From the IMG/VR virus record IMGVR_UViG_3300045929_000088, positions 1 to 39,761 of that record: a stretch of 39,761 bases of DNA, one strand, 5' to 3'. Below the pieces are notes generated by a model. It had not been told where the DNA came from. It did no database searches and saw only the letters and a list, made by a program, of their open reading frames with translations. This document shows positions 8,190-35,714 of the stretch, piece by piece. This DNA comes from a virus. Numbering within the stretch: position 1 is the stretch's first letter; each line of letters opens with the position of its first letter. The translations under genes were made by a program, and so were the position numbers.

Positions 8190-11100
8190 TGGCGGGCCAA
8201 GCACGCCCCCGACTGTTCGACGACCCGGTGCCGGCGCCGAGCTCGCCGATGACGACACCGGACACGCCGGCGGCGGTGCCCCCGCCCGCGCGCGAACGCC
8301 TGTTCGAAGAGCCCGTGCTGGGCCAGCCGGCGCCCGATCCGCTCGGTCAGCACCTGACGACGCAGGCGCCCGACCGCGCCGCGCGCGTGCTCGAGCTCAA
8401 TCGCAAGACGGGCATCCCGGTGCCCTACATCACGCAGAACTTCGACGCGCTCGACAAACGCGATCGCGGCGAGAGCTACGACGTCGAGACGGTGCGCCGG
8501 CGCGCGCCCGAGGTGTACCGCTGGCTGCGCGCCAACGGCGATGCCGCGGCCCTGGCGGCCGATGACCTGCCGTCGCTCGTGCAGGCCGAGCAGTCGATTC
8601 AGATCCTGGGCACGCTGCGCCAGTCGTGGGACCAGGTCCAGGCGCTGACCGGCGCGAGCGTCGAAGGGTTCGGGTCGTGGTTCGGGGCCGAGGGGCTCGA
8701 GGACTACGGGCGCGAGGTCCGCTTACGGAACCTCCAGGAAGCGGCCGGCTACGGGCCGCGGCTCTCGCTCACCAAGGGCGAGGTGACCGACGCCCACGCG
8801 ATCGCGAAGTGGGCCACCGAAGGCCTCGTCTCCCAGGCGCCCCAGATCGGCATCTCGTGGGGCGGCGCGATCGCCGGCGCCGCGGCCGGCGCCGCGATCG
8901 GCAACGTGCCCGGTGCGGTGCTCGGCGCCCTCATCGGCGCGATCCCCGGATTCGCGCTCGGCTACGGCGAGGTCGTGTCCGACATTCGCGAGGTCGACCC
9001 GGAGGCCGAGATTGGCCTGGGCGCGTTCCTGGGCGGCTCGGCGATCGCCGCGCTCGACACCAAGGTGCCCTTCGGCATCGGCAAGCGGCTCTCGAGCCTG
9101 CTGGGCCACCAGGTCGCCGAGCGCGTCGTCGCGAAGGCGCTCGTGCAGCCGGTGCGATCGACCTGGCTCACCGGCACGCTCAAAGAGGGCGTCAAGGAGA
9201 TGCGCTCGGAAGCGATCACCGAGGCGCTCCAGAAAGCGATCGCCGACGTCACCACCACCGCGACGACCGGCAAAGCGTTCGATGCCAAGCAGACCGCGCT
9301 CGACATGCTCGAGGAAGGCCTGCTCGGTGGGCTCGTCGGCGGCACCGTCGCCGGCGGCATCCACGCCACCGTGGGCCACCGCGCCCACGAACGCCTCGTC
9401 GCGATCGCCGAGCAGCGCCAGCAGGCCATGCAGACGCTGGCCGCGTCGGTCGCGCAGAGCAAGACCGCGCAACGCTCGGAGCAGGCCGCCGGCGAGATTC
9501 TCTCGCAGGCCGGCGCCGCCAACGGCGTCGACACCATCTACCTGCCGATCGAGACGTTCACCGAGTACTGGCAGAACGAAGGGCTCCAGCCCGACGTCGT
9601 CGCCGCCGAGCTCACCGGCAACCCCACGGCGCTCGCCGAGGCGCAGCAGCAGGAACTGCCGAACCTGGCGGTGCCCTTCGCCACCTTCGTCACCAAGATT
9701 GCCGGCGCCGCCGAGGGCAAACACTTCCAGTTTTTCCAGAACGAGTTCCGCCTGTCTCCAGAACAGCAGAACGTGCGGGAGTCGAAGGCCGAGGTCGCGA
9801 CCCTCGAGCGCGAGCTCGAGGCGCTCGTCGACCAGGGCACGACCGCGAGCGAGGCCGATGCGCCCGCCGTCCAGATCGCCGCCGACGTGCTCGAGAAGAT
9901 TGTCAGCGCCGGCGAGTCGCCGCAGATCGCCAAGACCCTGGCGACCTACATCGCCACGCGCGAGGTGCACCGCGCGCAGGCCCGCGGCGTCGACCCGCTC
10001 GAGCTCTATCGCGCGCAGCCGTTCACGTTCTCGTACACCGATCGCCAAGGCCGCCCGATCGTCACGCGCGTGGGTGGGCCGCCGGCCGCCGCGCGTGCCG
10101 CCGACATTCCCCCGTCGCGCGGCGTCGAGGGCGAGACGCGCGAGGGGCGTCAGACACGCGAGACGGCCCACACCGCCGCGATCGCCAAGCACATCGTCGA
10201 CGCCGCGCAGGCGCTCGACCCCGACGTCGACGGCGCCCTGCTCGCGCGCGAGGTCGCCGAGCGGATGCGCGTCCGCGCCGAGGACATTGCCGCGCGCCGC
10301 GAAGCGGAAGACGACCCGCGCGTGCTGCTCTCGGCGATCGCCGACGCCGGCGGCATTCGCACCGACCAGGCCGGCGACCTGATCGACGGCATCCCCCCGC
10401 GCACCGTGCGCGGCGTGCACCACTACGACGTCAACGGCGTGAAGAGCGTCGTGCGGGACGACGGCCGCACCTGGGACGACCTGACCCGCTCGCTGATGCA
10501 GGAGGGCGGCTACGCCTGGCTCGAGGACGACCTCAACACACTGGTCGAGGCCGTCAACGTCGCGAGCCGGCCGCACACCGCCGGCGGCACCAGCGTCGAC
10601 GACGAGCTCCCCGGCACGCAGGAGCTCCGCGACGAGCTCGACATCGACACCAGCGAGAAGTGGTGGGAACACGGCTTGTGGCTCGCCGACCCGTCCCTGC
10701 GCGAGTCTGAAGGAAACATCGACGAGTCTGAAGGAAACATTCCCGAGGGCGCCGACGATTCGTTCAACGTTGACGAGCTCGAGCAGCGCGACAACGACAA
10801 CGAATTCTTCCAACCCGACGAGCGCAACACGCCAGACGGGTTCGACGTCCTCGCGCCGCACCTGACGCCCGCCGAGCAGACCAAGCTCCGCGCCGATACC
10901 GCGCAGGCACTTGTCGACACGTTCCTCGAGATTCCGCGTGACGCCGATTGGGAAGCAGTCGCGGTCGCCGGCCGCGCCAAGAAAGGCTGGTACGCGCGAT
11001 CGACCACCGCGATCCGCGCCATGTTCGGGATGGTCGACAGCGTGCGCTTCTCGGCGCTCCTCGCGGCGCTCTCGCCGCGCACCGAGGTCGACACCAACCT

Positions 11101-14100
11101 CGCGAACACGCTCCGCATGTGGAAGCACTGGCTCGAGGCCGGGCGTCCCACCGACCGCGAGGCGATCCTCGCGCTCCTAGCGCGCAGCGTGTCGGGCCAA
11201 CGCGACGAGGCCTCCGTGCTGGACTCGTGGCGCAACAACGCGGTCACCGCGCTCGCCACCGAGGACCCGCTCCGCATCGTGCTCTCTGGACCGAAAGTTC
11301 ACAGCTTCGCCATGAACCTGTGGGGCTACGTCCACGAAGTCACGACCGATTCGTGGATGGTCACGTTCGCCGCGCTCGAGGAAGGCGTGCTCGGCAGCGG
11401 CGCGCGCAACGTCGCCGGTACCGACCCTGGGAAGACACCCGGCTATCTCGCGTTCAGTGCGAAGGTGCGCCGTGTCGCGAAGACGCTCACGCGCCGGACC
11501 GGCGAGCCGTGGACTGCGGCCAACGTGCAGGAGACGGTGTGGTCCTGGGCAAAGACTTTGTATGAGCTCTCGGAGACCGAGGGCGTCAGCGCCGAAGCGT
11601 TCCTGAAATCGGGCAAACTGACCGACCAGGCGATCGCCGGCGCGCCGGATTTCGCAACTTTGTTCACCGCGGACGCGGATGTCCGCTCGTTGCTGGAGGC
11701 TGCAGGCTATGGCGAAGAACTCCGCACGTTTGCGCGATCAGATGCTCGCCGACGCCGACGCGATTCTGATCGCGCGGCAGCAGGCGGAACGGGATCGCGT
11801 GGCCCGCATCGTGTCACGCCGGCGCTCCTCCGCAGCGCCCGCCGGCTCGACGCCGTCCGGCAGCGCCGACGCGACGGCGCCGCGGCGCGGAAGCGCGCGC
11901 AACAGAACGCCGCGCGCGAAAAGCTAAAGGCCGCCAAGGCTCGCGCGCGCGCCAAGCGCGGCGAGTTCGAACAGCGCGACTGGAACCTCGCCGAGCGACC
12001 CCGGCGGGCCGCGCTCACCAAAGACGACGCGCGCGCGGCCGCCCGGGCGCTGCAGGGCAAGCCGCTTGTCAATGCCGCTTCCGGGCGCCGAGGCACACTC
12101 ACGCGCGACGGCATCAACAAGATGCTCGATGACCGGGACTCTGTCGCCGAGTCGTCCTCACCCGAGGATCATTTCCTCGCCGTCGCCAACGTCGACCAGT
12201 TGTTTGAGCGTGCGCTGTGGAACCAGACCGAGTCAGAAGCGCCCCGCGACGCCGTCGACAACACCATCGTCGCGTACCACCGGTTCTATGCGCCGCTGCG
12301 CGTGCCCGACGGCAGCGTGCGGTTGGTGAAGATCACAGCCAAGGAAGTCGGGCCAGGCCAACGGCCGGAGTTGGGCGATCGCTTGTACGCGATCGAATCG
12401 ATCGAGGTGGAGCAGGCCAGCCCTGCGTCCGAGATAGGAGAGGTGCGGGCCACGGTCGGCGCCGACGAAGGCCGTACCCCGTCCTGGTCCGCAGGGCCAC
12501 TCCAGAGTCTAACGGATCGCGTGTCCGGGATCGAGGCGATCGAGGTCGAGAGGACGGGCTCCGCGGCCGTTCGGGATGACGCCGCATCAGTGCCTGCAGA
12601 CGCCGATCTGGCATCACCCAGCCCGCGCGAGTCCGTCTCAGGATCTGCGCCCCCCGATGTCGGGAAGCGAGAGGGTACGCTGCAGCGGCCCCCGTCGCGA
12701 TTCGCAGAACCGATCCACAGTTTAGTCGAAGCAATCCGCGCGTTCAACGCACGCCGTGGCGAGTTCGAACAGCGCGAGCGCGCGCCACGCGCGTGGCCGA
12801 CGGGTGCCGAGCGCGACGCGCTCAACGAGGAGCTCGACGCCCTCACGCAGCAGATCCGCGACGGCGCCGGCGCGCCTGGCGTCTTCCTCGACGCGCACAT
12901 CAGCCAGGGCGGCGACCTGTCGCTCGATGCGATCGCGGTGCCGCAGTCACGCCAGAACGACGGCGTCGGCAGCGCCATGCTCGAGCAGTTGCTCGCGTGG
13001 GCCGACGCGCACAACCTGGCGGTGTCGCTCGACGCGGCGCCGGCGCCGCGCAAGAAAGGCGCGCTCGCGCGCTTCTACGCTCGCCACGGGTTCATTAAGA
13101 ACGGCACGGCACGCTACTACGACGGCGCGATCGCGGGCTCGCTGGTGCGGCCGGCAAAGAGTGAGCGTGGCACCGACGAGTTCTCTCACGCCGACACCAA
13201 CGAGGGCATTCTCCGCGGCGGCTTCAGCAAGTACTCGCGCACGATCCGGTTGATCGCCGGCCAGGCGAACCTCTCCACGTTCCTGCATGAGAGCGCGCAC
13301 CTGTTCCTCGAGGAGCTCGTCGAGGATGCGGTGTCCGTGCCCGAGGGCCACGCGCTCCGCGCCGACGCGGCGACGGCGCTCGCCTTCATTGGATTCACGG
13401 GCACGCTCGAGGAGTTCCGCGCGCTCGAGGTGACTGACGACGCGCGCCGGATGCACGAAGCGTGGGCCGAGGCGTTCGTCGAGTACCTGCACCAGGGTAA
13501 AGCACCGACGCCCGAGCTTCAGCCGCTGTTCTCAAAATTCCGCGGTTGGTTGATTGCCGTCTACCGCACGCTCACGGGCCGCGGCATCGAGGTGCCCGAG
13601 GACGTGCGCGGCGTCATGGATCGGTTGTTCGCGAGCGAGCAGGCGATCGCGGCCGCCGAGCGCGAGCGGTCGTTCACGCCGCTCTTCTCGAACGCGGCCA
13701 CGGCCGGCGTCAGCGAGCTCGAGTTCGCGGCGCACGAAGCCGCGATGCGCCAGGCCTCCGAGGAAGCGCGCGCGGCGCTTAACGCGGTCGTCATGGCCGA
13801 TTGGCGCAAGACGCAGACGGCCGACTGGAAAGCCAAACGCGACGTGGTCGAGCGCGAGGTGCGCGGCGAGTTCAATGCGCAGCCGGCCTTTGTCGCGCAG
13901 TCGGTCATTCGGACGGGCAAGATGCCCGATGGCTCCGATCCGTCGTTTGCTGACGGCACACCCATCAAGCTCTCGAAGGACGCGATCGTCCAGCAGTTCG
14001 GGCGCGAGATGCTCGACCGCCTGCCGCGGCCGTATCTCTACACGCGCGCCGGCGGCAGCGACCCGGCCATCGTCGCTACGCTCACTGGCTTCCCCGACGC

Positions 14101-17047
14101 GGAGACGTTGCTCGAGGCGCTCGCCGTAACGCCGGCGCTCAACGCCGTCGTCGCCGCGGAGACGGACAAGCGGATGCTCGAGCGGCACGGCGAGCAGATG
14201 CTCGACAAGATGTCGTTGGCCGAGGCCGCGAAAGCCGCGGTGACCGACCAGCGGCGCAAGGTCATTTCCGCCGAGCTCGCCATGCTCACCAAGGGCATGG
14301 CGGCCGCGGCGATTCCCAACCCGCGGGTCGTGCGCCTGGCGGCGCAGCAGGCCGTCGCGAAGACGCGCGTGCGCGACCTGCATCCCGGCCAGTACCGCGC
14401 GGCCGCGGCGCGCGCCAGTCAGCAGGCCTTCGAGGCCTGGGGCCGCAACGACCGCAGCACGGCGATCGAGGCGAAGCGGCGCGAGCTCTTCGCGCTCGAG
14501 CTCGCGCGCGCGGCGCAGGAGGCCGTCGCCGTCGGCGAGCGCATCGAGCGGCAGATGCGGCAACTCGATTCGTCGACGAAGCTGCGCGGCCGCATGGGCA
14601 AGGCCGGCGTGCTCGACCAGATCGACCAGATCCTCGAGCGGTACGAGTTCCGGCCCGTCTCGAACAAGGCGCTCGATCGGCGGAAGACCCTGCGCGCGTA
14701 CCTCGCCGAGCTCGAGGCGCAGGGCGTGCCCACCGAGCACATCCCCGACGACGTGAAGGACGACGCGCGCCGCGTCAACTGGCGCGAGCTCACCGTCGAG
14801 GAGCTCGCCGGTGTGGCCGACGGCATCCAGATGCTGCTCCACCTGGGGCGGCTGAAGGACAAGCTGCTCACCGCGCAGGCCCAGCGCGAGCTCGAGGCGA
14901 TTCAGGGCGACCTCGCCACGCACGTCGAGCAGGTCGGGCCACTACCGAAGACGCGCCCGATCGAAGTACGGCTCCCCGCCGAGCAGGGGAAGCGGAAGCG
15001 CAAGGGCTGGGTGCTCGACCACCGCACGCTCTCGTCGCTCATCTTCGAGATGGACGGCTATCAGCACGGGCCGCTGTGGCAGTTCCTCATGCGGCCGCTG
15101 AACGAGGCGCTCGAGCAGAAGGCCGAGTTGATGGGGGTCGCGACGAAGTTCTTTGTCGACCACCTGGGCACGCACTACAGCAACAGCGAGCAACTGGCGA
15201 TGGACCGGGCCGAGCTCGTGCCAGGCACCGGGCTGCGCCTGTCGAAGATGGCGCGGCTCATGGTCGCGTTGAACTACGGCAACAGCACGAACAAGCAGCG
15301 GATGCGCGACGGCTACGGCTGGAGCGAGGCCACGCAGACGGCGATCATCGAGTCGCTCGACGACCGGGACTGGAATTGGGTCGAGGGCGTCTGGGAGCAC
15401 ATCGACAGCTATTGGCCGGCGACCGCGGAGAAGATGAAACGGATCAGTGGGGTCGCGGCCGAGAAGGTCGAGGCCGAACCGTTCACCGTGGAGGTCGGCA
15501 AGGCGGCGAACGGCATTGGGACGCCCCGCACGCTGCGCGGCGGCTACTTCCCCATCAAGTTCGAGCACCAGTACGACGTGCTCGCCGCCGCGCATGAAGA
15601 GGCCGGCGTCGGGTTGCTCCACCAGAACACCGCGTACATGGCAACGACGGTGCGCCGCGGCCATGAGAAGCAGCGCGCCGAGGGCAACGTGTCGCGCGCG
15701 GTGCGGCTCGACTTCGGCGTGATTGCCGAACACCTGAACGACGTCATCCACGCGATCGCCATGCACGAAGCGATCATCGACGTCGGCCGGATTCTCAACC
15801 CGCGCGGCGAGCTCGCGCAGGCGATCGTGAACGTCCACGGCGACAAGACCTACGACACGATCAAACGGGCGCTCCGCTTTATCGCCGTCGGCCAGCAGGA
15901 GGAGTACCGCGACATTTCCGGGTTCGTCGACCGGATGCGCCGCGGGAGCCAGGTCGTCGGCCTGGGCTGGAACTTCGTCACGCCGCTCTTGCAGCTCGCC
16001 GGCCTGGGCAACGTGATGGCGCGCGTCGGCGTCGTGCCGACCGTGGCCGCGGCGCTGCGGATCGCGGGCGACCTCTCACGCGGCGGCACGACGCTGCGCG
16101 CGATCCGCGCCGAATCGTCGTTCCTCAAGACGCGGCCCCAGACCATCAATCGCGAGATTCACGAGTTCACGCAGCGCGTGGGCCTGAACCGCAATCAGTT
16201 CGAGAACCACGCCGACGCGATCGTGCGGAAGGTCTTCCGCGACCGGGCCACCTACGCGGCCCTCCAGCGGTCGTTCTTCTCGATGATTACCGGCATGCAG
16301 TCGGTCGTCGACGCCGTGGCCTACACGGCTGCACGCGACCAGGCGCTGCGCGCCGGCAAGGACCGCGAGACGGCGATCGCGATCGGCAACCAGGTCGTGC
16401 GCGACACGCAGGCCTCTGGCGAGTCGGCCTACCAGGCGGAAGTGCTCCGGGGCTCGACGTTCCAGAAACTGTTCACGACGTTCTTCGGGCCGATGCTCGC
16501 CACCTACAACCTGTGGACCGAGCAGATGCACAAGGCCAAGCGCGACGTCGGCAAGGGCGGCTCGCGCCTGAAGGCCAGCGGCGAGCTCGCCGCGGAGTTC
16601 GCGTTCCTGTTCCTGGTCGGCCCCGCCATCATCACGCTGGCGCGCGAAGTGTCGCGCGGCGACTTCGGCGACGACGACGACTTCGATCGGTTCCTGGTGG
16701 AGATCGGCCTGGCGATCGCCGGCACCACCTTCCTCGTGCGCGACGTCGCGCAGGCGACGGCGAGCGGCTACGGCTACGAAGGCCCGCCAGGGATGCGACC
16801 GGCCGCGACGATCGCCGACACGGGCCGGCGGATCGGGCGCGCGTGGACCGACGAGGACTACGCCGCGATCGCCGGCGAAGCGGCGGCCGCCGTGGGCTCG
16901 GTGGGCGGCGCCTACCTGCACATGCCGACGGGCGCCGTGCTCCGCGCGCGCCGCGCCTACCTGGCGTGGCTCGAGGGCGAGCTCGACGTCAACGTCCTGC
17001 AAGCGATGTTCTTCGGCTACGACCGCGAGGGGTTCGATGAAGAGTAA
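8189..17047 (+). CDS. Giant polyvalent virion protein (gp16-position, 2952 residues)
   Basis: One uninterrupted frame from GTG 8189, with GGAGG five bases upstream. Domains I can see, by residue: ~225-260 a glycine zipper (GAIAGAAAGAAIGN); ~885-1105 a helical domain with LAALSPRT and SGPKV.SFAMNLWG, as in the DUF7178 domain of polyvalent proteins; ~1327-1411 an LPD3-like domain (FLAVANVDQLFE...AYHRFYAP); ~1562-1640 a GNAT-like acetyltransferase (LDAIAVP...GVGSAMLEQ...RFYARHGF); ~1690-1800 a zincin-like metallopeptidase with H1700-E-S-A-H1704 and a downstream EAWAEAF; ~2680-2785 a C-terminal LPD region, followed by two hydrophobic segments. In the gp16 position it is expected to be packaged and ejected with the DNA, delivering its enzymes to the host. 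No lysozyme-like catalytic motif was identified. Domain names are from motif memory. Confidence 0.85.
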   Translation: MAGQARPRLFDDPVPAPSSPMTTPDTPAAVPPPARERLFEEPVLGQPAPDPLGQHLTTQAPDRAARVLELNRKTGIPVPYITQNFDALDKRDRGESYDVETVRRRAPEVYRWLRANGDAAALAADDLPSLVQAEQSIQILGTLRQSWDQVQALTGASVEGFGSWFGAEGLEDYGREVRLRNLQEAAGYGPRLSLTKGEVTDAHAIAKWATEGLVSQAPQIGISWGGAIAGAAAGAAIGNVPGAVLGALIGAIPGFALGYGEVVSDIREVDPEAEIGLGAFLGGSAIAALDTKVPFGIGKRLSSLLGHQVAERVVAKALVQPVRSTWLTGTLKEGVKEMRSEAITEALQKAIADVTTTATTGKAFDAKQTALDMLEEGLLGGLVGGTVAGGIHATVGHRAHERLVAIAEQRQQAMQTLAASVAQSKTAQRSEQAAGEILSQAGAANGVDTIYLPIETFTEYWQNEGLQPDVVAAELTGNPTALAEAQQQELPNLAVPFATFVTKIAGAAEGKHFQFFQNEFRLSPEQQNVRESKAEVATLERELEALVDQGTTASEADAPAVQIAADVLEKIVSAGESPQIAKTLATYIATREVHRAQARGVDPLELYRAQPFTFSYTDRQGRPIVTRVGGPPAAARAADIPPSRGVEGETREGRQTRETAHTAAIAKHIVDAAQALDPDVDGALLAREVAERMRVRAEDIAARREAEDDPRVLLSAIADAGGIRTDQAGDLIDGIPPRTVRGVHHYDVNGVKSVVRDDGRTWDDLTRSLMQEGGYAWLEDDLNTLVEAVNVASRPHTAGGTSVDDELPGTQELRDELDIDTSEKWWEHGLWLADPSLRESEGNIDESEGNIPEGADDSFNVDELEQRDNDNEFFQPDERNTPDGFDVLAPHLTPAEQTKLRADTAQALVDTFLEIPRDADWEAVAVAGRAKKGWYARSTTAIRAMFGMVDSVRFSALLAALSPRTEVDTNLANTLRMWKHWLEAGRPTDREAILALLARSVSGQRDEASVLDSWRNNAVTALATEDPLRIVLSGPKVHSFAMNLWGYVHEVTTDSWMVTFAALEEGVLGSGARNVAGTDPGKTPGYLAFSAKVRRVAKTLTRRTGEPWTAANVQETVWSWAKTLYELSETEGVSAEAFLKSGKLTDQAIAGAPDFATLFTADADVRSLLEAAGYGEELRTFARSDARRRRRDSDRAAAGGTGSRGPHRVTPALLRSARRLDAVRQRRRDGAAARKRAQQNAAREKLKAAKARARAKRGEFEQRDWNLAERPRRAALTKDDARAAARALQGKPLVNAASGRRGTLTRDGINKMLDDRDSVAESSSPEDHFLAVANVDQLFERALWNQTESEAPRDAVDNTIVAYHRFYAPLRVPDGSVRLVKITAKEVGPGQRPELGDRLYAIESIEVEQASPASEIGEVRATVGADEGRTPSWSAGPLQSLTDRVSGIEAIEVERTGSAAVRDDAASVPADADLASPSPRESVSGSAPPDVGKREGTLQRPPSRFAEPIHSLVEAIRAFNARRGEFEQRERAPRAWPTGAERDALNEELDALTQQIRDGAGAPGVFLDAHISQGGDLSLDAIAVPQSRQNDGVGSAMLEQLLAWADAHNLAVSLDAAPAPRKKGALARFYARHGFIKNGTARYYDGAIAGSLVRPAKSERGTDEFSHADTNEGILRGGFSKYSRTIRLIAGQANLSTFLHESAHLFLEELVEDAVSVPEGHALRADAATALAFIGFTGTLEEFRALEVTDDARRMHEAWAEAFVEYLHQGKAPTPELQPLFSKFRGWLIAVYRTLTGRGIEVPEDVRGVMDRLFASEQAIAAAERERSFTPLFSNAATAGVSELEFAAHEAAMRQASEEARAALNAVVMADWRKTQTADWKAKRDVVEREVRGEFNAQPAFVAQSVIRTGKMPDGSDPSFADGTPIKLSKDAIVQQFGREMLDRLPRPYLYTRAGGSDPAIVATLTGFPDAETLLEALAVTPALNAVVAAETDKRMLERHGEQMLDKMSLAEAAKAAVTDQRRKVISAELAMLTKGMAAAAIPNPRVVRLAAQQAVAKTRVRDLHPGQYRAAAARASQQAFEAWGRNDRSTAIEAKRRELFALELARAAQEAVAVGERIERQMRQLDSSTKLRGRMGKAGVLDQIDQILERYEFRPVSNKALDRRKTLRAYLAELEAQGVPTEHIPDDVKDDARRVNWRELTVEELAGVADGIQMLLHLGRLKDKLLTAQAQRELEAIQGDLATHVEQVGPLPKTRPIEVRLPAEQGKRKRKGWVLDHRTLSSLIFEMDGYQHGPLWQFLMRPLNEALEQKAELMGVATKFFVDHLGTHYSNSEQLAMDRAELVPGTGLRLSKMARLMVALNYGNSTNKQRMRDGYGWSEATQTAIIESLDDRDWNWVEGVWEHIDSYWPATAEKMKRISGVAAEKVEAEPFTVEVGKAANGIGTPRTLRGGYFPIKFEHQYDVLAAAHEEAGVGLLHQNTAYMATTVRRGHEKQRAEGNVSRAVRLDFGVIAEHLNDVIHAIAMHEAIIDVGRILNPRGELAQAIVNVHGDKTYDTIKRALRFIAVGQQEEYRDISGFVDRMRRGSQVVGLGWNFVTPLLQLAGLGNVMARVGVVPTVAAALRIAGDLSRGGTTLRAIRAESSFLKTRPQTINREIHEFTQRVGLNRNQFENHADAIVRKVFRDRATYAALQRSFFSMITGMQSVVDAVAYTAARDQALRAGKDRETAIAIGNQVVRDTQASGESAYQAEVLRGSTFQKLFTTFFGPMLATYNLWTEQMHKAKRDVGKGGSRLKASGELAAEFAFLFLVGPAIITLAREVSRGDFGDDDDFDRFLVEIGLAIAGTTFLVRDVAQATASGYGYEGPPGMRPAATIADTGRRIGRAWTDEDYAAIAGEAAAAVGSVGGAYLHMPTGAVLRARRAYLAWLEGELDVNVLQAMFFGYDREGFDEE
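10703..10740 (+). repeat. 17-bp tandem direct repeat inside the polyvalent gene
   Basis: GAGTCTGAAGGAAACAT occurs at 10703-10719 and again at 10724-10740, a 21-base period that keeps the reading frame and encodes two copies of ESEGNI in an acidic linker between domains. Probably a small slippage duplication in a flexible linker. Confidence 0.9.
11960..12777 (+). repeat. Direct repeat pair bounding the LPD3-like module
   Basis: The 20-mer GGCGAGTTCGAACAGCGCGA is identical at 11960-11979 and 12758-12777 and encodes RGEFEQR (residues 1257-1263 and 1523-1529). A related ELEQRD lies at residues 863-868, just before the DUF7178-like domain. The motif sits in linkers that precede domains, so the copies mark module boundaries. 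They may be recombination joints or conserved protein-level spacer/processing motifs. Confidence 0.85.
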
Positions 17048-21337: not shown

Positions 21338-21357
21338 CGTCTGAGACGTCTCAGACG
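21338..21357. repeat. Perfect 20-bp palindrome just after the endolysin stop
   Basis: CGTCTGAGACGTCTCAGACG reads the same on both strands and begins one base after the endolysin TAG. There is no loop or T-tract, so it is a better candidate for a dimeric protein binding site than for an intrinsic terminator. The sub-motif GTCTCAGACGTCT recurs at 26360-26372 within the early operon. Confidence 0.9.
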
Positions 21358-24817: not shown

Positions 24818-25057
24818 ATGGAAACAACGGGAATGCGACCGAAGCCCCGTTACGACACCGTCCGCATCGTGGCCGACATGGCGCTCAAGGGTTGGCTCCC
24901 GACTGACCTCGCCCGCGCAGCGAAGGTGTCGGACATGACCGTCAGCCGCTTTTTGAGGGGCGACACACAAACCGAGCGCACCGCCGACAAGTTGTCGCGC
25001 GCGCTCGGGTACTCACCGCGTCGCTACCTGTTGTCCGTCGCGCGACTCGCGTCATGA
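24818..25057 (+). CDS. Small HTH protein, Cro-like
   Basis: 79 residues with an almost complete XRE helix-turn-helix: 'GWLPTDLARAAKVSDMTVSRFLRGDTQTERTADKLSRALG' (the DLA..A.VS..TVSRFL helix pair is plain). It is the first gene after the putative PR promoter and divergent from the repressor, the position of Cro. Start ATG 24818 lies directly downstream of the -10; an alternative at 24833 is preceded by CGGGA. Its stop overlaps the next start (ATGA, 25054-25057). It probably represses the repressor promoter and tunes early transcription. Confidence 0.8.
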   Translation: METTGMRPKPRYDTVRIVADMALKGWLPTDLARAAKVSDMTVSRFLRGDTQTERTADKLSRALGYSPRRYLLSVARLAS

Positions 25058-26229: not shown

Positions 26230-26573
26230 ATCGCGCCGACGCCGACCGTCGCCTCTCGCGTCTCGAGGAGATGGCGAAGCGCCTCGTGCAGGAGATCGCG
26301 GACCTGCGGAACGACTTGTGCCAGCCGCCACCCCCCACGCCGACCCCGACGACGGATAAGTCTCAGACGTCTCAGACACGGCCGTCGTCGACACCCAACA
26401 CACGCGCGCCGCGGCTCCCAGGCGCGCGGCCGGCGCGTCGTCCGCAAGCCGCGTGGCGGCCGCCGCAGCGGCGCAGCGCGGTCCAACAACGCGTCGAGGC
26501 GAGCGGCCTCTGTCGCGCGTGCAAGGAACCCGTCCAAGCCTGTGACTGCGGGAGCCTTGGAGGGCGCGCCTGA
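26226..26573 (+). CDS. Coiled-coil protein with C-terminal zinc-binding motif
   Basis: 115 residues from ATG 26226, overlapping the exonuclease stop. Residues 1-36 are a charged helix likely to form a coiled coil (RADADRRLSRLEEMAKRLV); 37-85 are a Pro/Thr/Arg-rich disordered linker including SQTSQT; the end carries C-x2-C...C-x-C (CRACKEPVQACDC), a small zinc knuckle. The linker's SQTSQT is encoded by GTCTCAGACGTCTCAGAC, a sequence related to the palindrome at 21338. Function unknown; likely early nucleic-acid metabolism by context. Confidence 0.7.
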   Translation: MNRADADRRLSRLEEMAKRLVQEIADLRNDLCQPPPPTPTPTTDKSQTSQTRPSSTPNTRAPRLPGARPARRPQAAWRPPQRRSAVQQRVEASGLCRACKEPVQACDCGSLGGRA

Positions 26574-26869
26574 TGGCGGGTGCCTTCTGTCCGTCGTGTC
26601 GGCGGCGGCAGCAGATCAACCTGCACCGCGGCAACCGGGTCGCGGACCATCGCTGCGCACAGTGCGCGGGGCCGCTCGTCGGCGGCGCCGCGCGCGCCGC
26701 GCGTCTGTTTGACCTCGAGGCCGACCTCGCATGTTTCCTCGCCGACTGGCAGCGACTCCTCCGCGGCGAGGCTAACTGGCTCGCCTACGGGGACACCGTT
26801 AAGCGCGTGGCCCAAGGGTTAGCCACGCGCGCCATGCGGCTTTACCCAGAGCATCGGGTGCCGCGATGA
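26573..26869 (+). CDS. Zinc-ribbon protein (hypothetical)
   Basis: 98 residues starting at the overlap TGATG. The N-terminal CPSCRRRQ...HRCAQCAGPL is a four-Cys zinc ribbon (residues ~6-38), followed by a helical region (ARLFDLEADLACFLADWQRLL) without other motifs. The GCGATGA overlap couples it to the initiator gene downstream. Probably a small DNA- or protein-binding accessory for the exonuclease/replication genes around it. Confidence 0.7.
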   Translation: MAGAFCPSCRRRQQINLHRGNRVADHRCAQCAGPLVGGAARAARLFDLEADLACFLADWQRLLRGEANWLAYGDTVKRVAQGLATRAMRLYPEHRVPR

Positions 26870-27966
26870 GCGACTACGTTCGCACCCCCTACGGGACGAT
26901 CGAATCGACGTTCTGGGACGGCGATGAGGGTGCTGCGCTGCAACGGGTCGGGTGGGAGGCCACCGTCCTATTCGTGTACCTGCGAACCAATCGGCACGCC
27001 AACATGTGGGGGCTCTACCGGCTCCTGCAGTCGCAGGTCCTCCTCGACCTACCGGTGCTCAAAACCCCGAAGGCGGTGACGGCCGCCTTCGACGCACTAC
27101 AGCGCCTGCGCCTCGCCTACTACGACGACGACACGCAGTTTGTGTGGGTGGTACGAATGGCAGGCGACCGGGTGTACCCGACGGGCGCCGACCGGCCCCT
27201 GAAACGCGGCGACAACAAGTGGCTCGGCCTGATGCGGACGTACGCGGCGATGCCGGCCAACCCGTTCCTCGGCGTCGCCTTCGATCATTACCGCGAGCAG
27301 TTCAACCTGCTCGCCGCCGATCGCCGCGAGGGACTCCCGTGGCAAAAACACCACGGTCAAAATTTCACGATCGGGGTAAGCCCCTTGGTAAGCCCCTTGG
27401 TAAGCCCCTTGGTAAGCCCCTTGGTAAGCCCCTTGGTAAGCCCCTTGGTAAGCCCCTTGGTAAGCCCCTTACCCCACGATCAGAAGAACAGAAGAACAGA
27501 AGAACAGAAAGATCAGGAGAACAGGGCTGTGGAAATTGCGGACGCTGTGGACGCGCCCGCACCGTCCTCTGGTGAGGTCACACACAACCGAGCCAGCGCG
27601 CCCACAGCCCCCGACAATTTCCACGAGCCCCCACTCGTCGTCCCCCCTGCAGAACCCCAACCTCTCCCACTGGGTCCCCGGGGGATTGTGTCGCGACCAC
27701 TAGTGGCCGTCGACGCCGCGCACCCCGATGTCGTCGCCGTCTCGTTGGGGGTGCAGAAGAACCTCCTGCGCCTGCGACGGTGGGCTTCGTATGACGAGCT
27801 CCTGGCGAACGCGCGGGAGTTCTTCGCGGACCTCCCAGCGTGGACGGTGAGCCGCGGCGTGTTTCACGCAGTGACCGAGGCGCGGCGACTGGCGCCGGAG
27901 GATGAGCGGATCGGCACCTTGTGGCGGCAATCGATCGAGCGCGATCAGGAAGGCGACGCGACATGA
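26866..27966 (+). CDS. Replication initiator / replisome-organiser-like protein with iterons
   Basis: 366 residues. The N-terminal ~125 residues look like a winged-helix replisome organiser domain ('FWDGDEGAALQRVGWEATVLFVYLRTNRHANMWGLYRLL'...'KAVTAAFDALQRLRLAYYDDD'), a pattern common in phage replication initiators. The middle is a repetitive, disordered segment containing eight VSPL units, encoded by the iteron array at 27376-27471, followed by a basic/acidic stretch and a Pro-rich linker. The C-terminal ~95 residues form a small helical domain (SLGVQKNLLRLRRWASYDELL). As with lambda O, the origin probably lies inside the gene. No helicase or polymerase follows, so the phage would recruit the host replisome. 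Confidence 0.72.
   Translation: MSDYVRTPYGTIESTFWDGDEGAALQRVGWEATVLFVYLRTNRHANMWGLYRLLQSQVLLDLPVLKTPKAVTAAFDALQRLRLAYYDDDTQFVWVVRMAGDRVYPTGADRPLKRGDNKWLGLMRTYAAMPANPFLGVAFDHYREQFNLLAADRREGLPWQKHHGQNFTIGVSPLVSPLVSPLVSPLVSPLVSPLVSPLVSPLPHDQKNRRTEEQKDQENRAVEIADAVDAPAPSSGEVTHNRASAPTAPDNFHEPPLVVPPAEPQPLPLGPRGIVSRPLVAVDAAHPDVVAVSLGVQKNLLRLRRWASYDELLANAREFFADLPAWTVSRGVFHAVTEARRLAPEDERIGTLWRQSIERDQEGDAT
27376..27471 (+). repeat. Iteron array: eight 12-bp repeats, candidate replication origin
   Basis: GTAAGCCCCTTG is repeated head to tail at 27376, 27388, 27400, 27412, 27424, 27436, 27448 and 27460; the eighth copy ends CTTA instead of CTTG. The array is bounded by inverted GGGGTAAG (27373-27380) and CTTACCCC (27468-27475). 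The 12-base period keeps the frame (VSPL x8). Identical iterons inside an initiator gene are the hallmark of lambdoid and iteron-type origins. Confidence 0.9.
27481..27508 (+). repeat. 8-bp purine-rich tandem repeat beside the iterons
   Basis: CAGAAGAA is repeated three times from 27481 to 27504, with a partial fourth copy (CAGA). The 8-base period does not preserve the reading frame, so the repetition is at DNA level rather than for the protein. It sits a few bases from the iterons on the side where a duplex-unwinding element would be expected. Confidence 0.85.
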
Positions 27967-30437: not shown

Positions 30438-30463
30438 CCCACGCCAAAAAAGAGGGACCACCC

Positions 30464-30724
30464 ATGACGCTCAACGCGACGACCCCGTGCCAGGCCTGCC
30501 CCGAGCTCCCGCGCACCGAGCACATGCACGCGCTCGTCGTGCGCGCCGAGCTCCTGGCCGGCCATCTCAGTCTCGAGGCGTTCACCGCCTGGAGTCAGGC
30601 GATCGACAACTTCAACCCGGTGTTCGAAGCGCACTGCCTACACCAGGTCCACCGCACCAGCGCGCTGCTCGCCGATGCGCGCGGCGAGGAACCGATGCTG
30701 CCGCTGGTGTTCGTCGAATGCTGA
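30464..30724 (+). CDS. Small hypothetical early protein with paired Cys
   Basis: 86 residues from ATG 30464, with GAGGG seven bases upstream. Starts MTLNATTPCQACPEL (CxxC), then a helical region with His/Cys (NPVFEAHCLHQVH), which could bind a metal. No recognised family. ATG of the next gene overlaps its end (ATGCTGA). Confidence 0.62.
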   Translation: MTLNATTPCQACPELPRTEHMHALVVRAELLAGHLSLEAFTAWSQAIDNFNPVFEAHCLHQVHRTSALLADARGEEPMLPLVFVEC

Positions 30725-31119
30725 CGACGGTCGGCGACACGGTGCGGCGCTACCTGCACCGGCGCGCGAACGACGAAGGCCCGCAGGCGCTGCCGACGCT
30801 GCGCGACGAGCTCCTGGGCGACCTCGAGGAGGCGGCGCTCGGCGAGGCCGCGGCGCGGGCGACCCATGAGGCGGTGCTGGCGAGCTACCGCGACATTGAG
30901 GCGGAACTGGCGGCGCTGCGCGCGACCGACCCCCCGCTCTCGCCCGAGAACGCCGCGGTGCGCGCGCAGTACCGCATCGACCTCGAGGCGATCGGCCGGG
31001 AGATGACCCGCACCGGGGAGGCACTCGTCACGGCAACCGGCAAGCGCAACGGCGTGGCCTTCCTGCTCGACCAGGTGCGTGTCGTGCTCGAGGAGCGCGC
31101 GCGCGGCGTGCGGGCATGA
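30718..31119 (+). CDS. Coiled-coil early protein (hypothetical)
   Basis: 133 residues from ATG 30718, overlapping the previous stop. Long amphipathic helices with Ala/Glu/Arg heptads (DELLGDLEEAALGEAAARAT; DLEAIGREMTRTGEALV). No Cys clusters or membrane segments. Its stop overlaps the next start (ATGA at 31116). May act as a chaperone or regulator in the early operon; no specific function is supported. Confidence 0.65.
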   Translation: MLTTVGDTVRRYLHRRANDEGPQALPTLRDELLGDLEEAALGEAAARATHEAVLASYRDIEAELAALRATDPPLSPENAAVRAQYRIDLEAIGREMTRTGEALVTATGKRNGVAFLLDQVRVVLEERARGVRA

Positions 31120-31352
31120 CCTGCGGCGACACGCGGCCGGTCAACGGGAGCGACCCGCTGGTCTGCACGCGGCCTCGCGGCCACGACGGCCGCCACGCCA
31201 TGCTGAATGCCGTCGGCGAGGCGATCGCCGCGTGGCCGACCCCGTGGACCGCCGACGATGAACGCGCGCGCCAGGCCCGCCTGGCGTGGCACAAGCCGCA
31301 TGTGCGGCGCGAGTACGTGACGCTGGCGACCTGGGTGCCGCCGGCGTCGTGA
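31116..31352 (+). CDS. Small hypothetical early protein
   Basis: 78 residues starting MTCGDTRPVNGSDPLVCTRPRGHDGRH, a Cys/His spacing (C...C...H...H) that may bind one zinc. The remainder is Trp-rich (WPTPWTADDERARQARLAWHKP). It is the last gene of the coupled early operon before a 155-base gap leading to the ParA gene. No family recognised. Confidence 0.62.
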   Translation: MTCGDTRPVNGSDPLVCTRPRGHDGRHAMLNAVGEAIAAWPTPWTADDERARQARLAWHKPHVRREYVTLATWVPPAS

Positions 31353-31466
31353 GGGGGTTCGGGAGGGGACGCGGCCGGCAAGGCTGACCGGCGGCGCGCG
31401 CCGTCGGCGGCGATTGCGTGTAGGAGCGGTCGCGTCCGTCCCGACGTTCCACGGCGAACACCGCAG

Positions 31467-31486
31467 TGCAAACCGGTTGCAAACGG
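31467..31486. promoter_or_regulatory. Partial copy of the ParA-gene palindrome, upstream of its start
   Basis: TGCAAACCGGTTGCAAACGG shares AAACCGGTTGCAA with the large palindrome at 31592-31620 and lies 22 bases before the ParA start codon, where an autoregulatory operator would be expected. The rest of gap 31353-31507 shows no clear promoter. Confidence 0.6.
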
Positions 31487-31507
31487 AGTCAAGTCAAGGA
31501 GGACCGC

Positions 31508-32422
31508 ATGGAAGATGAGGTAGAGGCATTTGTGCGCCGCGGCGTGGCCGCGTCGCGAGCGGTCGCGGCGCTGGGCGTCGGCCCGAGCGCCCCGACAAAC
31601 CGGTTGCAACCGGTTGTCGGTGACGATCGCCCGCACGACCAGGGGTCAGCACGGGTCGTGGCGATCGCCGCGCACAAGGGCGGCGTGGGTAAGACGACGA
31701 CGGCGATCGTGCTCGCCGCCGGCCTGGCGCGCTGGCTGGGCCACCGTGTGCTGCTCGTCGACCTGGACCCGCAAGGGTGTGCGACGCGCGGGCTCATCAC
31801 GACCGACGTCACCTACCACGAGCTCGGCACCGCCGACCTGTTCACCGACTCGCCTCGCAGCGTCGGGGCCGTGGCGCGCGACACCCAGGTGCCAGGGCTC
31901 GTGATGGTCCCGAGCTCGTTGCGGCTCGAGCGCCACGCGCAGTGGCTGGCGTCGGCGACCGACCGCGGCTACTACCTACAGCACGCCCTGGCGCCCGAGC
32001 TCGCGTGCTTCGAGTGGATCGTGCTCGATTGCCAACCCTCACTGGGTCCACTTGTCGAGAATGCGTGCCGCGCCGCCACCGACATCATCGTGCCGGTGCG
32101 GATGGAAGCGCGATCGCCGGAGTCGATCGTCGACCTCGAGGGCTCACTGCGGCAGTGGCGCCGCGACTTCGACGCCTGGTGGTTGCTCCGCACGCTGTTT
32201 CACCCACGACGCAAGGTGACGCAGGCGGTGAGCGAGACGCTCGATCGATTCGAGCGGCGCGTGCTCCACACCACGATCCGCCAAAGCGAGAGCGTCAACC
32301 AGGCGCAACTCGTCGGCGAGGACCTACTCTCGTACGACCCCGAGTGCAACGCGGCGATCGACTACCAGGCCTTGGTGCGGGAGGTGAGCGCATGGCGCGA
32401 AAGCTCTCAACCGCGGATCTGA
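31508..32422 (+). CDS. parA: ParA-family partitioning ATPase
   Basis: 304 residues from ATG 31508, preceded by AAGGAGG; an upstream in-frame start at 31466 lacks such a signal. Residues 56-64 are the deviant Walker A (HKGGVGKTT, K57 and K62), followed by VLLVDLDPQG (Walker A') and a Walker B region VLDCQPSLGPL, the order of ParA/Soj ATPases. A ~45-residue N-terminal extension precedes the ATPase. These proteins bind DNA non-specifically and move plasmid or chromosome cargo with a ParB-type partner. No ParB is recognised; the overlapping small protein at 32392 is the best positional candidate. In a phage it suggests stable inheritance of an extrachromosomal form or a regulatory use. Confidence 0.88.
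   Translation: MEDEVEAFVRRGVAASRAVAALGVGPSAPTNRLQPVVGDDRPHDQGSARVVAIAAHKGGVGKTTTAIVLAAGLARWLGHRVLLVDLDPQGCATRGLITTDVTYHELGTADLFTDSPRSVGAVARDTQVPGLVMVPSSLRLERHAQWLASATDRGYYLQHALAPELACFEWIVLDCQPSLGPLVENACRAATDIIVPVRMEARSPESIVDLEGSLRQWRRDFDAWWLLRTLFHPRRKVTQAVSETLDRFERRVLHTTIRQSESVNQAQLVGEDLLSYDPECNAAIDYQALVREVSAWRESSQPRI
31592..31620. promoter_or_regulatory. Near-perfect 28-bp palindrome inside parA (operator/centromere candidate)
   Basis: Two 14-base arms match perfectly (CCGACAACCGGTTG and its inverse) around a GCAA core; the only deviation is one extra A in the left arm at 31597-31599. It lies in the parA N-terminal extension, codons for PTNRLQPVVG. A related half-site occurs at 31467-31486. 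Such sites serve as parS-like centromeres or ParA/ParB operators in partition loci. Confidence 0.8.
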
Positions 32423-32676
32423 CGGCGCGCGCGCGGGCGCGGCTGCGCCAGGTCGTCGTGCCCGAGCCGATGCGGCGCCGGCCGCACCTGGTCAAGTGCG
32501 AGTACGGCCCGTGCGACGTGCTCGTCGATCGGTCGGCGCCGCGCGCGAAGCACAAGAAGTACTGCTCGAGCGGCCACAAGTGGCTCGCCTGGCGCGCCCG
32601 CGATCGCGAGCACGCGCGCGAAGAGGGGCGCCACGAGGAACGCGCGCGAACCGCCCGTCGCGGGGGACTCAGATGA
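32392..32676 (+). CDS. Small basic zinc-finger protein, possible ParA partner
   Basis: 94 residues from ATG 32392, overlapping the end of parA by 31 bases. The basic N-terminus (ARKLSTADLTARARARLRQV) is followed by C-x4-C...C-x3-H (CEYGPCDVL...KYCSSGHKW), a treble-clef-like metal site, and a very Arg-rich tail (WRARDREHAREEGRHEERAR). Basic zinc-binding proteins placed like this can be site-specific DNA binders. By position it could replace ParB and bind the palindrome at 31592, but it has no ParB motif, so this is a hypothesis. Confidence 0.65.
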   Translation: MARKLSTADLTARARARLRQVVVPEPMRRRPHLVKCEYGPCDVLVDRSAPRAKHKKYCSSGHKWLAWRARDREHAREEGRHEERARTARRGGLR

Positions 32677-32857: not shown

Positions 32858-33349
32858 ATGCGCTGCTGGCGTCCCCTCCCGGATTCAAACTGCCTCGAGG
32901 TGAGCGACGACGGCGTCGTGCGCGTCATCGGCGGCGACGAGCTCGCGCAGTGGGTCAGCGGCGCCGGCTACCTGCAGGTCGACGTCGGCGGGCCCGCGCC
33001 GCTCGCCGTGCACCGGCTGGTGCTCGAGGTCTTCGTCGGCCCCGCCCCGCCCGGGCACGTCGCCCACCACGCCGACCACAACAAGGTCAACAACCGGGTC
33101 GGCAACCTGGCCTGGGTCACTCGCAGTGAGAACGGCAAACGCGCGTGGGCCGCCGGCCGGCAGTCGGCCGTTCGACCCATCCGGACGACCTGCCATCAGG
33201 GGCATCCGCTCGATCAGACCTATCGGCAACGGGATCGGCGGGGGGTCCAGCGGGAGTGGCGGCGGTGTTCGGCGTGTCGCCGGCTCGGCGATCGCCGGCG
33301 CCGGGAGGCGGCCAAGCACGCGGGCGTGCTCGCCCTGCCGGGGCTCTAA
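32858..33349 (+). CDS. HNH homing-type endonuclease with NUMOD4-like N-terminus
   Basis: 163 residues. Residues ~1-55 resemble NUMOD4 (WRPLPDSNCLEVSDDGVV..., then G-Y-L-Q-V). Residues ~55-95 carry the HNH_3 core: HRLVLEVFVG, HHADHNKVNNRVGNLAWVT, with the H-N-N pattern of intron-type homing nucleases. A C-terminal Cys/His cluster (CHQGHPLDQTY...RRCSACRR) may form an extra zinc ribbon for target binding. Freestanding copies are common selfish genes in phages, though HNH proteins near terminase can also take part in packaging. Confidence 0.83.
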   Translation: MRCWRPLPDSNCLEVSDDGVVRVIGGDELAQWVSGAGYLQVDVGGPAPLAVHRLVLEVFVGPAPPGHVAHHADHNKVNNRVGNLAWVTRSENGKRAWAAGRQSAVRPIRTTCHQGHPLDQTYRQRDRRGVQREWRRCSACRRLGDRRRREAAKHAGVLALPGL

Positions 33350-34682: not shown

Positions 34683-35108
34683 ATGGGGACACAGCTCGAG
34701 TGGTGCCGGCTGATCGAGGTGCGGTGCTGTTGTCAGCCGGTGAAGCAGTACGGCTGGTTGCACGTGCACGAGTCGCTCGTGGTGAAAGGCCGGCGCGTGA
34801 CGTTCGCCGGCGCGAACGATCTCCGCGTCACGCTGGAGGTGCGCGAGCTCCAGGAGGATCGCGCCGAGCTCGTGCGGCTCGAGGGCGATCCGGTGGACGT
34901 TACCGTGGTGCGGTGCTCACGCCTGGCGTTGAGCAGCGAGCACGTGCCGCTCGAGACGATCGCGCAGCTGGATGGGTTCGTGCCGTGGCGGCCAGCGTTC
35001 ACCTGTCTGCGGTGCCACGCGGTGAGCTTCAACGTGCACGACATCGCGCAGCGCTACTGCGGCCGGTGCCATCGATTCCTCGAGGACGATGCCGGCCTTG
35101 AGACGTGA
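34683..35108 (+). CDS. Zinc-finger-containing hypothetical protein
   Basis: 141 residues from ATG 34683 with AGGAG upstream. The N-terminal half is beta-rich with EVRCCCQP near residue 12. The C-terminal CLRCHAVSFNVHDIAQRYCGRCHRFLED (C-x2-C...C-x2-C) is a clear zinc ribbon at residues ~107-132. Last of three consecutive zinc-ribbon genes before the toxin-antitoxin pair. Function unknown. Confidence 0.68.
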   Translation: MGTQLEWCRLIEVRCCCQPVKQYGWLHVHESLVVKGRRVTFAGANDLRVTLEVRELQEDRAELVRLEGDPVDVTVVRCSRLALSSEHVPLETIAQLDGFVPWRPAFTCLRCHAVSFNVHDIAQRYCGRCHRFLEDDAGLET

Positions 35109-35127
35109 GTCGCCGACAACACGCCGT

Positions 35128-35154
35128 CTGCATGACGATATATACTTGATGCAG
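35128..35154. promoter_or_regulatory. vapBC promoter/operator candidate
   Basis: CTGCAT (35128-35133) and ATGCAG (35149-35154) form an inverted repeat that flanks the -10-like TATACT (35141-35146). The VapB start codon follows at 35155, so the transcript would be nearly leaderless, and the repeat would let the VapB/VapC complex block it. No good -35 is seen. Confidence 0.55.
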
Positions 35155-35358
35155 ATGCGCACAACGCTCAATCTCGACGACGACAAGATCGCTCGCGCGA
35201 AAGCGCTCACGGGCGAGACGGAGAAGACGGCCCTGATCCACGCCGGCCTGGATGCCTTGATTGCCAGGGAGAGCGCGAAGCGCCTGGCGGATCTGGGTGG
35301 GCACTTCCCCATCAGGACGCCACCGCGTCGCCGGCGCGCCCCGCGGTCCCGCCGATGA
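35155..35358 (+). CDS. vapB: VapB-type antitoxin
   Basis: 67 residues from ATG 35155 (ATG 35149 is an alternative). 'MRTTLNLDDDKIARAKALTG' followed by ETEKTALIHAGLDALIARES is the ribbon-helix-helix/VapB pattern widespread in bacterial VapBC modules: an N-terminal beta strand and two helices for operator binding. The C-terminal tail is very basic (PPRRRRAPRSRR) where the toxin-neutralising segment is usual. Its stop overlaps the toxin start (ATGA, 35355-35358). Should neutralise the adjacent PIN toxin and autoregulate the operon. Confidence 0.88.
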   Translation: MRTTLNLDDDKIARAKALTGETEKTALIHAGLDALIARESAKRLADLGGHFPIRTPPRRRRAPRSRR

Positions 35359-35714
35359 TCCTGGTCGACACCTCGATCTGGATCGATCACGGTCGGCGCC
35401 GTGATACGCAGTTGGCGGACTGGCTCATCGAAGGCCTGGTGCTAGGACATCCGTTCGTGCAGGGAGAGCTCGCGTGCGGGCAGATGCCGCGACGTACGGA
35501 CGTGCTCGCGTTGTTCGATCAGTTGCCGGTGGCACCCCTCGTCGCCCACGACGACGTGCTGCAGTTTGTCGAGCGACACGGGTTGATGGGCCGCGGCCTG
35601 GGGTGGATCGATCTCCATCTCTTGGCGTCCGCCGTGGTCAGCCGGGCCACCCTCGCGACGCGCGATCGCCCGCTCGCGCACGCCGCACGCGCGCTCGGCG
35701 TCGGTGAAAAGTAG
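35355..35714 (+). CDS. vapC: VapC-type PIN-domain ribonuclease toxin
   Basis: 119 residues beginning MILVDTSIWIDH. The PIN acidic residues are present: D5 in VDTS, E38 in GELACG, D86 in GWIDLHLLAS, and D104 in TRDRPLAHAA, so the nuclease looks intact. VapC toxins cut specific tRNA or rRNA loops and arrest growth when VapB is lost. Here the pair sits between early/middle genes and the terminase and could stabilise the prophage, act as an abortive defence against competing phages, or be a passenger. Confidence 0.9.
   Translation: MILVDTSIWIDHGRRRDTQLADWLIEGLVLGHPFVQGELACGQMPRRTDVLALFDQLPVAPLVAHDDVLQFVERHGLMGRGLGWIDLHLLASAVVSRATLATRDRPLAHAARALGVGEK

Follow-up and report, generated by a model that had tools for sequence, protein, structure and literature searches.

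A phage parA gene with an overlapping zinc-finger gene and a palindrome in its coding start: a putative type Ib-like cassette

The reading we propose for this locus is that of a type Ib-like ParA cassette in which a CGNR-like treble-clef zinc finger would replace the RHH partner, and in which a palindrome lying inside parA would be the operator or centromere; we give this reading a probability of about 0.55. The gene pair, a conserved cis site under constraint at the DNA level, and the occupation of that slot by an RHH-like protein in related loci are read from the sequence; DNA binding by the zinc finger, stimulation of ParA, autoregulation and partition are what we infer. The window, that is, the whole stretch of DNA analysed, is a virus record of 39.8 kb with 69% GC that encodes a tyrosine integrase, a YqaJ-type recombinase and VapBC.

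Results

The parA gene and its relatives

The features of the locus are the following:

31469..31486, no strand: upstream copy of the palindrome core, CAAACCGGTTGCAAACGG, 17/18 bases, found by repeat search; proposed second binding site
31496..31503, + strand: ribosome-binding site AAGGAGGA for ATG 31508, from sequence
31508..32422, + strand: parA, intact deviant Walker-A ATPase
31592..31620, no strand: near-perfect 28-bp palindrome CCGACAAACCGGTTGCAACCGGTTGTCGG in parA codons 29-38; proposed operator/centromere
32392..32676, + strand: small basic zinc-finger protein of 94 aa (C-x4-C-x16-C-x3-H), overlapping the parA end by 31 bp; proposed centromere- or operator-binding partner
32858..33349, + strand: HNH endonuclease gene, downstream (Pfam HNH_3, 2.1e-14)

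The parA gene starts at ATG 31508, with AAGGAGG directly 5' of it, and its product carries the motifs KGGVGKTT, VDLDPQG and LDCQPSLG. The KGGxGKT signature, the Walker A' and B motifs seen in alignments and the family profile matches (Pfam AAA_31, 7.6e-30; PHROG 164 ParA-like, 2.2e-43; PDB ParA/Soj, 8.8e-27) place it among the ParA / Walker-A cytoskeletal ATPases. Pfam detected no domain in its N-terminal extension of 48 residues. A scan of the window ParA against genomes returned relatives at about 30-42% identity only.

Four IMG/VR contigs belong to the window's own family. They are not independent of one another, because the window, L003 and L004 are identical across the parA module, and L006 and L016 do not differ in the part common to both. 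A profile search found two further relatives, G001 (contig L106, ParA 48% identical) and G002 (contig L107, ParA 37%), so that the evidence comes from three independent lineages, the contigs of G001 and G002 being perhaps incomplete. G001 has a terminase and a giant virion protein in common with the window; when 27 mostly non-structural window genes were searched, homologues in G001 were detectable only for ParA, the zinc finger, the HNH protein (41% identical), terL and the gene after terL. The HNH gene, common to both, is not taken as part of the mechanism. The capsid genes of G002 differ from those of the window and, by our reading of the ORFs, appear to form an HK97-like portal-protease-capsid set; the pair of parA and zinc-finger gene therefore occurs in different phage types.

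The surroundings of parA vary. Directly upstream of it, a mosaic boundary separates strongly different genes (window 30462-31300 compared with L004 and L006) from a parA and promoter region that is identical or nearly so, and the parA module therefore seems to have been exchanged as a block. A gene for a HerA/FtsK-like ATPase, so identified by reading (GFEVG...GQTQLSGKTT), lies directly upstream of parA in G001 (L106:494-2401) and close upstream in G002 (L107:1601-3265), and by eye is absent from the window; its products gave no meaningful match in Pfam or NCBIfam.

The zinc-finger protein is conserved with ParA

The pairing of ParA with a zinc-finger protein, which the initial annotation had pointed out, is real and is conserved in three phage lineages. 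Homologues of the zinc-finger protein are encoded at the same place in G001 (42% identity) and G002 (32%), each ORF overlapping the end of parA, and despite these identities the zinc-ligand positions are retained with C/H swaps: C-x4-C ... C-x3-H in the window, C-x3-C in G001 and H-x3-C in G002, after a basic N-terminus. Among 214 ParA-bearing loci scanned, the window family, G001 and G002 were the only ones in which parA is overlapped by a zinc-finger ORF. A zinc-finger-like match in L186 was rejected, no ParA being found among its neighbouring ORFs listed.

Neither the zinc-finger proteins nor their profile gave a significant match in Pfam, NCBIfam or PDB. The G002 protein has a weak match to zf-CGNR (E 0.083, below the cut-off); the window protein does not match CGNR (PF11706) even at E 10, and only its ligand spacing is similar. 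Its AlphaFold model is weak (pLDDT 61), and Foldseek found nothing with this weak model. The profile found nothing in G007-G010, G007 being an actinomycete, or in 396 genomes from the phylum to which G007 belongs, in a search that had no positive control. A literature search for ParA with a zinc finger returned no relevant paper; to our knowledge no zinc-finger partner of ParA has been described, and the fold is not known in ParA systems.

The partner slot holds RHH-like proteins in related loci

The initial annotation had remarked that the usual ParB is missing. Neither ParB_N (PF02195) nor HTH_ParB (PF17762) was found in seven contigs, perhaps incomplete, in which control domains were detected. 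The locus thus does not appear to be a canonical parABS with a ParB. In L110, L195, L138, L145, L154 and L097 the same slot, overlapping parA, is occupied by a small basic protein that is of RHH type by eye. Because related ParAs have their small RHH-like partner there, this is most likely where the centromere-binding protein is encoded, and at least one exchange of partner has most likely taken place. In the ParA tree the three zinc-finger lineages and L110 form one clade (100/98), within which L107 pairs with L110 (100/94); L110 stands inside the zinc-finger clade yet has an RHH-like partner, and the pairing is therefore not fixed by ParA descent. A repeat search upstream of the L110 parA gave nothing convincing.

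The palindrome in parA is conserved as DNA

The palindrome at 31592-31620 was confirmed as first described, with 14-base arms and one extra A. Its core AACCGGTTGCAACCGGTT at 31598-31615 is a perfect 18-bp palindrome, and the whole is built of two identical 8-bp palindromes, AACCGGTT, with centres 10 bp apart. What had been called a half-site before the start codon does exist as a copy of this core, located after the preceding genes and before the ribosome-binding site, and is not a half: it matches 17 of the 18 bases and comprises one intact AACCGGTT and one degenerate unit. Taken alone, the palindrome is only moderately rare, as a shuffled window is expected to contain 0.17 bulged palindromes whose arms reach 13 or more, and one is seen. 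Four further observations lift it above chance: the clustering of AACCGGTT, the codons used, the lack of change in relatives and the same architecture in G001. Within the 39.8 kb, AACCGGTT occurs exactly three times (31471, 31598 and 31608), always at parA and within 145 bp. The palindrome is made of codons that are rare in this GC-rich phage (ACA 3%, TTG 8%, CAA 13%, GTT 2%). When this peptide was recoded according to the codon usage of the phage, 143 of 200,000 trials yielded a perfect palindrome whose arms had 9 or more bases. The diverged relatives L016 and L006 show no change in either site. Between the window and L016 there are 7 differences in 336 bp at 31365-31700, four of them in one cluster, compared with 40 in 691 at 31701-32391, the remainder of parA up to the overlap; of the synonymous changes, 1 falls in the first 50 parA codons and 31 in the other 254.

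In G001, a perfect 22-bp palindrome, GGAACGCGTTCGAACGCGTTCC, lies within the first part of the parA coding sequence (2435-2456), some 52-55 bp ahead of GTG/CTG GCGATCGCC, the latter being conserved in the window and G001. The architecture is the same in both, two AACNNGTT units 10 bp apart with an altered centre, and so is the codon register (AAC NNN TTN NAA CNN GTT). Both half-sites have changed together from CCGG to GCGC, giving AACCGGTT in the window and AACGCGTT in G001. The peptide encoded across the site is not conserved (NRLQPV versus NAFERV) and the architecture is kept, so that it is the DNA that is under selection. G001 has a second exact copy 24 kb away, at 26338-26359, in a variable linker of a giant gene and in another reading frame; the homologous giant virion gene of the window (8189-17047, 2952 residues) has no site there.

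The initial annotation had made its proposal depend on the palindrome recurring in homologous loci. It recurs at the same place in G001; what G002 has is no more than a degenerate motif at another place; the conserved double palindrome is thus present in two of the three lineages. G002 shows, instead of a bipartite palindrome, AACGCGTT with degenerate neighbours at 10-bp spacing, 3' of the zinc-finger gene. This AACGCGTT, taken alone, could be a chance occurrence: such an 8-mer is also present in 2 of 84 other GC-rich ParA loci, and none of the 84 has the bipartite motif.

Other motifs and features

A search with AACGCGTTNNAACGCGTT returned 15 stretches in 14 contigs, and this ParA was found only in G001 (two stretches). 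Exact 18-mer matches in IMG/VR led to L009, L012 and L013, which were rejected as kin: these AT-rich phage contigs have no ParA match, and their repeated AACCGGTT (L009:1390, L012:12203, L013:507; spaced by 10 bp in L009 and L012) lies close to a glucosaminidase-like gene. A repeated GTCTCAGAC/GTCTGAGAC motif is found at window 21338-21357, as another long and perfect palindrome of 20 bp, and at 26360-26377, as a tandem pair retained in L004 and L006. At 27375-27470, eight perfect 12-bp tandem repeats (GGTAAGCCCCTT) within gene 26866-27966 encode a repeated SPLV and look like iterons, as if a replication origin lay within an initiator gene; the protein of this gene has no Pfam match. The genes for the VapB antitoxin and its PIN-domain (VapC-type) toxin form a pair at 35089-35714.

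Discussion

Proposed mechanism

In the mechanism we propose, the zinc finger would bind the helically phased AACNNGTT units and, from the promoter-side and in-gene sites, would repress the parA and zinc-finger genes. The bound zinc finger would form a complex in which its basic N-terminal tail would stimulate the ParA ATPase, and ParA, located on the nucleoid, would move or tether the phage genome while it is extrachromosomal. Such a partition could be of use while the phage replicates as a circle, as is reported for the SXT/R391 ICEs (PMC4489591). Binding of the palindrome by the zinc finger is plausible, and so is a role of the system in DNA partition that would go beyond self-regulation. 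The fuller proposal, in which a treble-clef zinc finger would act as centromere binder, would have traded places with an RHH protein inside a single ParA clade, and would co-evolve with a centromere inside the parA coding sequence, is more tentative, and we place it somewhat short of even odds.

Counted against partition by the zinc finger is the number of sites, one or two per genome, which is few for a centromere. An integrase is present in G003, G004 and G006 as in the window; a prophage of this kind would normally have no need of partition, and the integrase argues against a permanently extrachromosomal prophage. Together, the integrase and the few sites allow for pure autoregulation, in which the palindrome is an operator through which the zinc finger, or ParA, represses its own operon, ParA having a non-partition role such as positioning or interference with resident plasmids; ParI, an orphan ParA that interferes with resident plasmids, and other orphan ParAs with other roles have been reviewed (PMC9178275). 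The position of the sites, which flank the ribosome-binding site and the early coding region, suits such an operator. Autoregulation would however need no second exact copy, and in G001 there is one at a distance of 24 kb, within a late structural gene; nor was a sigma-70-type promoter recognised near the sites, a result of little weight in a GC-rich host. We consider autoregulation alone unlikely, and still the strongest competitor of the type Ib-like cassette.

It is less probable again that an unrelated phage or host regulator binds the palindrome, whose position would then merely link parA to that regulator. The candidate in the window is the HTH protein 24818-25057, which narrowly passes the Pfam LacI cut-off; AACCGGTT and AACGCGTT presumably resemble LacI-type operators, and they form tandem arrays in phage contigs without this ParA. 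Yet such a motif is absent from the intergenic region of the 24818 regulator, and a search of G001, whose contig may be incomplete, found no homologue of its protein; a host protein might still be the binder. As for a chance palindrome in parA beside an unrelated small zinc-finger gene, the moderate rarity of the palindrome alone and the 20-bp palindrome elsewhere in the window would speak for it, but the rare codons, the confinement of all three AACCGGTT to parA, the G001 counterpart at the same place with its concerted change and the repetition of the 22-bp palindrome in G001 bring coincidence close to refutation.

ParA systems combine one conserved motor with interchangeable adaptors, of which the ParB-type and RHH adaptors are well studied. 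If the type Ib-like cassette is real, a zinc-finger adaptor would show that the DNA-binding part of these systems can be replaced by another fold, and a function would be offered for those 'orphan' phage ParA genes whose partner, not being a ParB, is missed. The difference between AACCGGTT in the window and AACGCGTT in G001 is natural material for a specificity swap.

Comparison with known systems

The type Ib plasmid partition systems (ParF/ParG of TP228, delta/omega of pSM19035; reviewed in PMC5016525) resemble the locus in their short ParA without an N-terminal DNA-binding domain or HTH extension, in the small basic partner gene directly downstream, and in having a cis site where the operon begins. 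In type Ib systems such a site is repeated or palindromic and is bound by the partner; the one in our locus is present and conserved, and is a candidate for that role. The nearest plasmid relative examined, Skermanella pSM-4 (ParA 36% identical), has this layout with a small partner that we read as RHH-type. Unlike type Ib systems, the window has as partner a zinc-finger protein with conserved C/H ligands, a bipartite palindrome inside parA with a further copy upstream, a ParA with the 48-residue extension, and a phage integrase.

The parABS loci of the cluster A mycobacteriophages (RedRock, Miko; PMC7157519) are likewise phage-encoded ParA genes with a cis site and diverse partners, at least four ParB families being known there (PMC7157519). 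They stand in place of the integration cassette, and the RedRock parS loci are 8-bp direct repeats (PMC7157519). The window phage differs from them by its integrase and its palindromic site.

We know of no CGNR zinc finger working with a ParA. The CGNR fingers (PF11706; Jann_2411), treble-clef and thought to bind DNA, have C-x4-C and C-x3-C ligands at similar spacing, basic residues and an Asp near the second Cys (PMC2954205). Unlike CGNR proteins, the window zinc finger has no ABATE domain and no significant Pfam match.

N15 and RK2 use ParB-type proteins (SopB/KorB) and have more sites than G001. The two identical inverted repeats of G001, widely separated and located in parA and in a late gene, are reminiscent of these replicons, plasmids or phage-plasmids whose centromeres are scattered (cited in PMC5016525). 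The SXT/R391 ICEs likewise combine integration with partition, the latter by a different, ParM-type system (PMC4489591).
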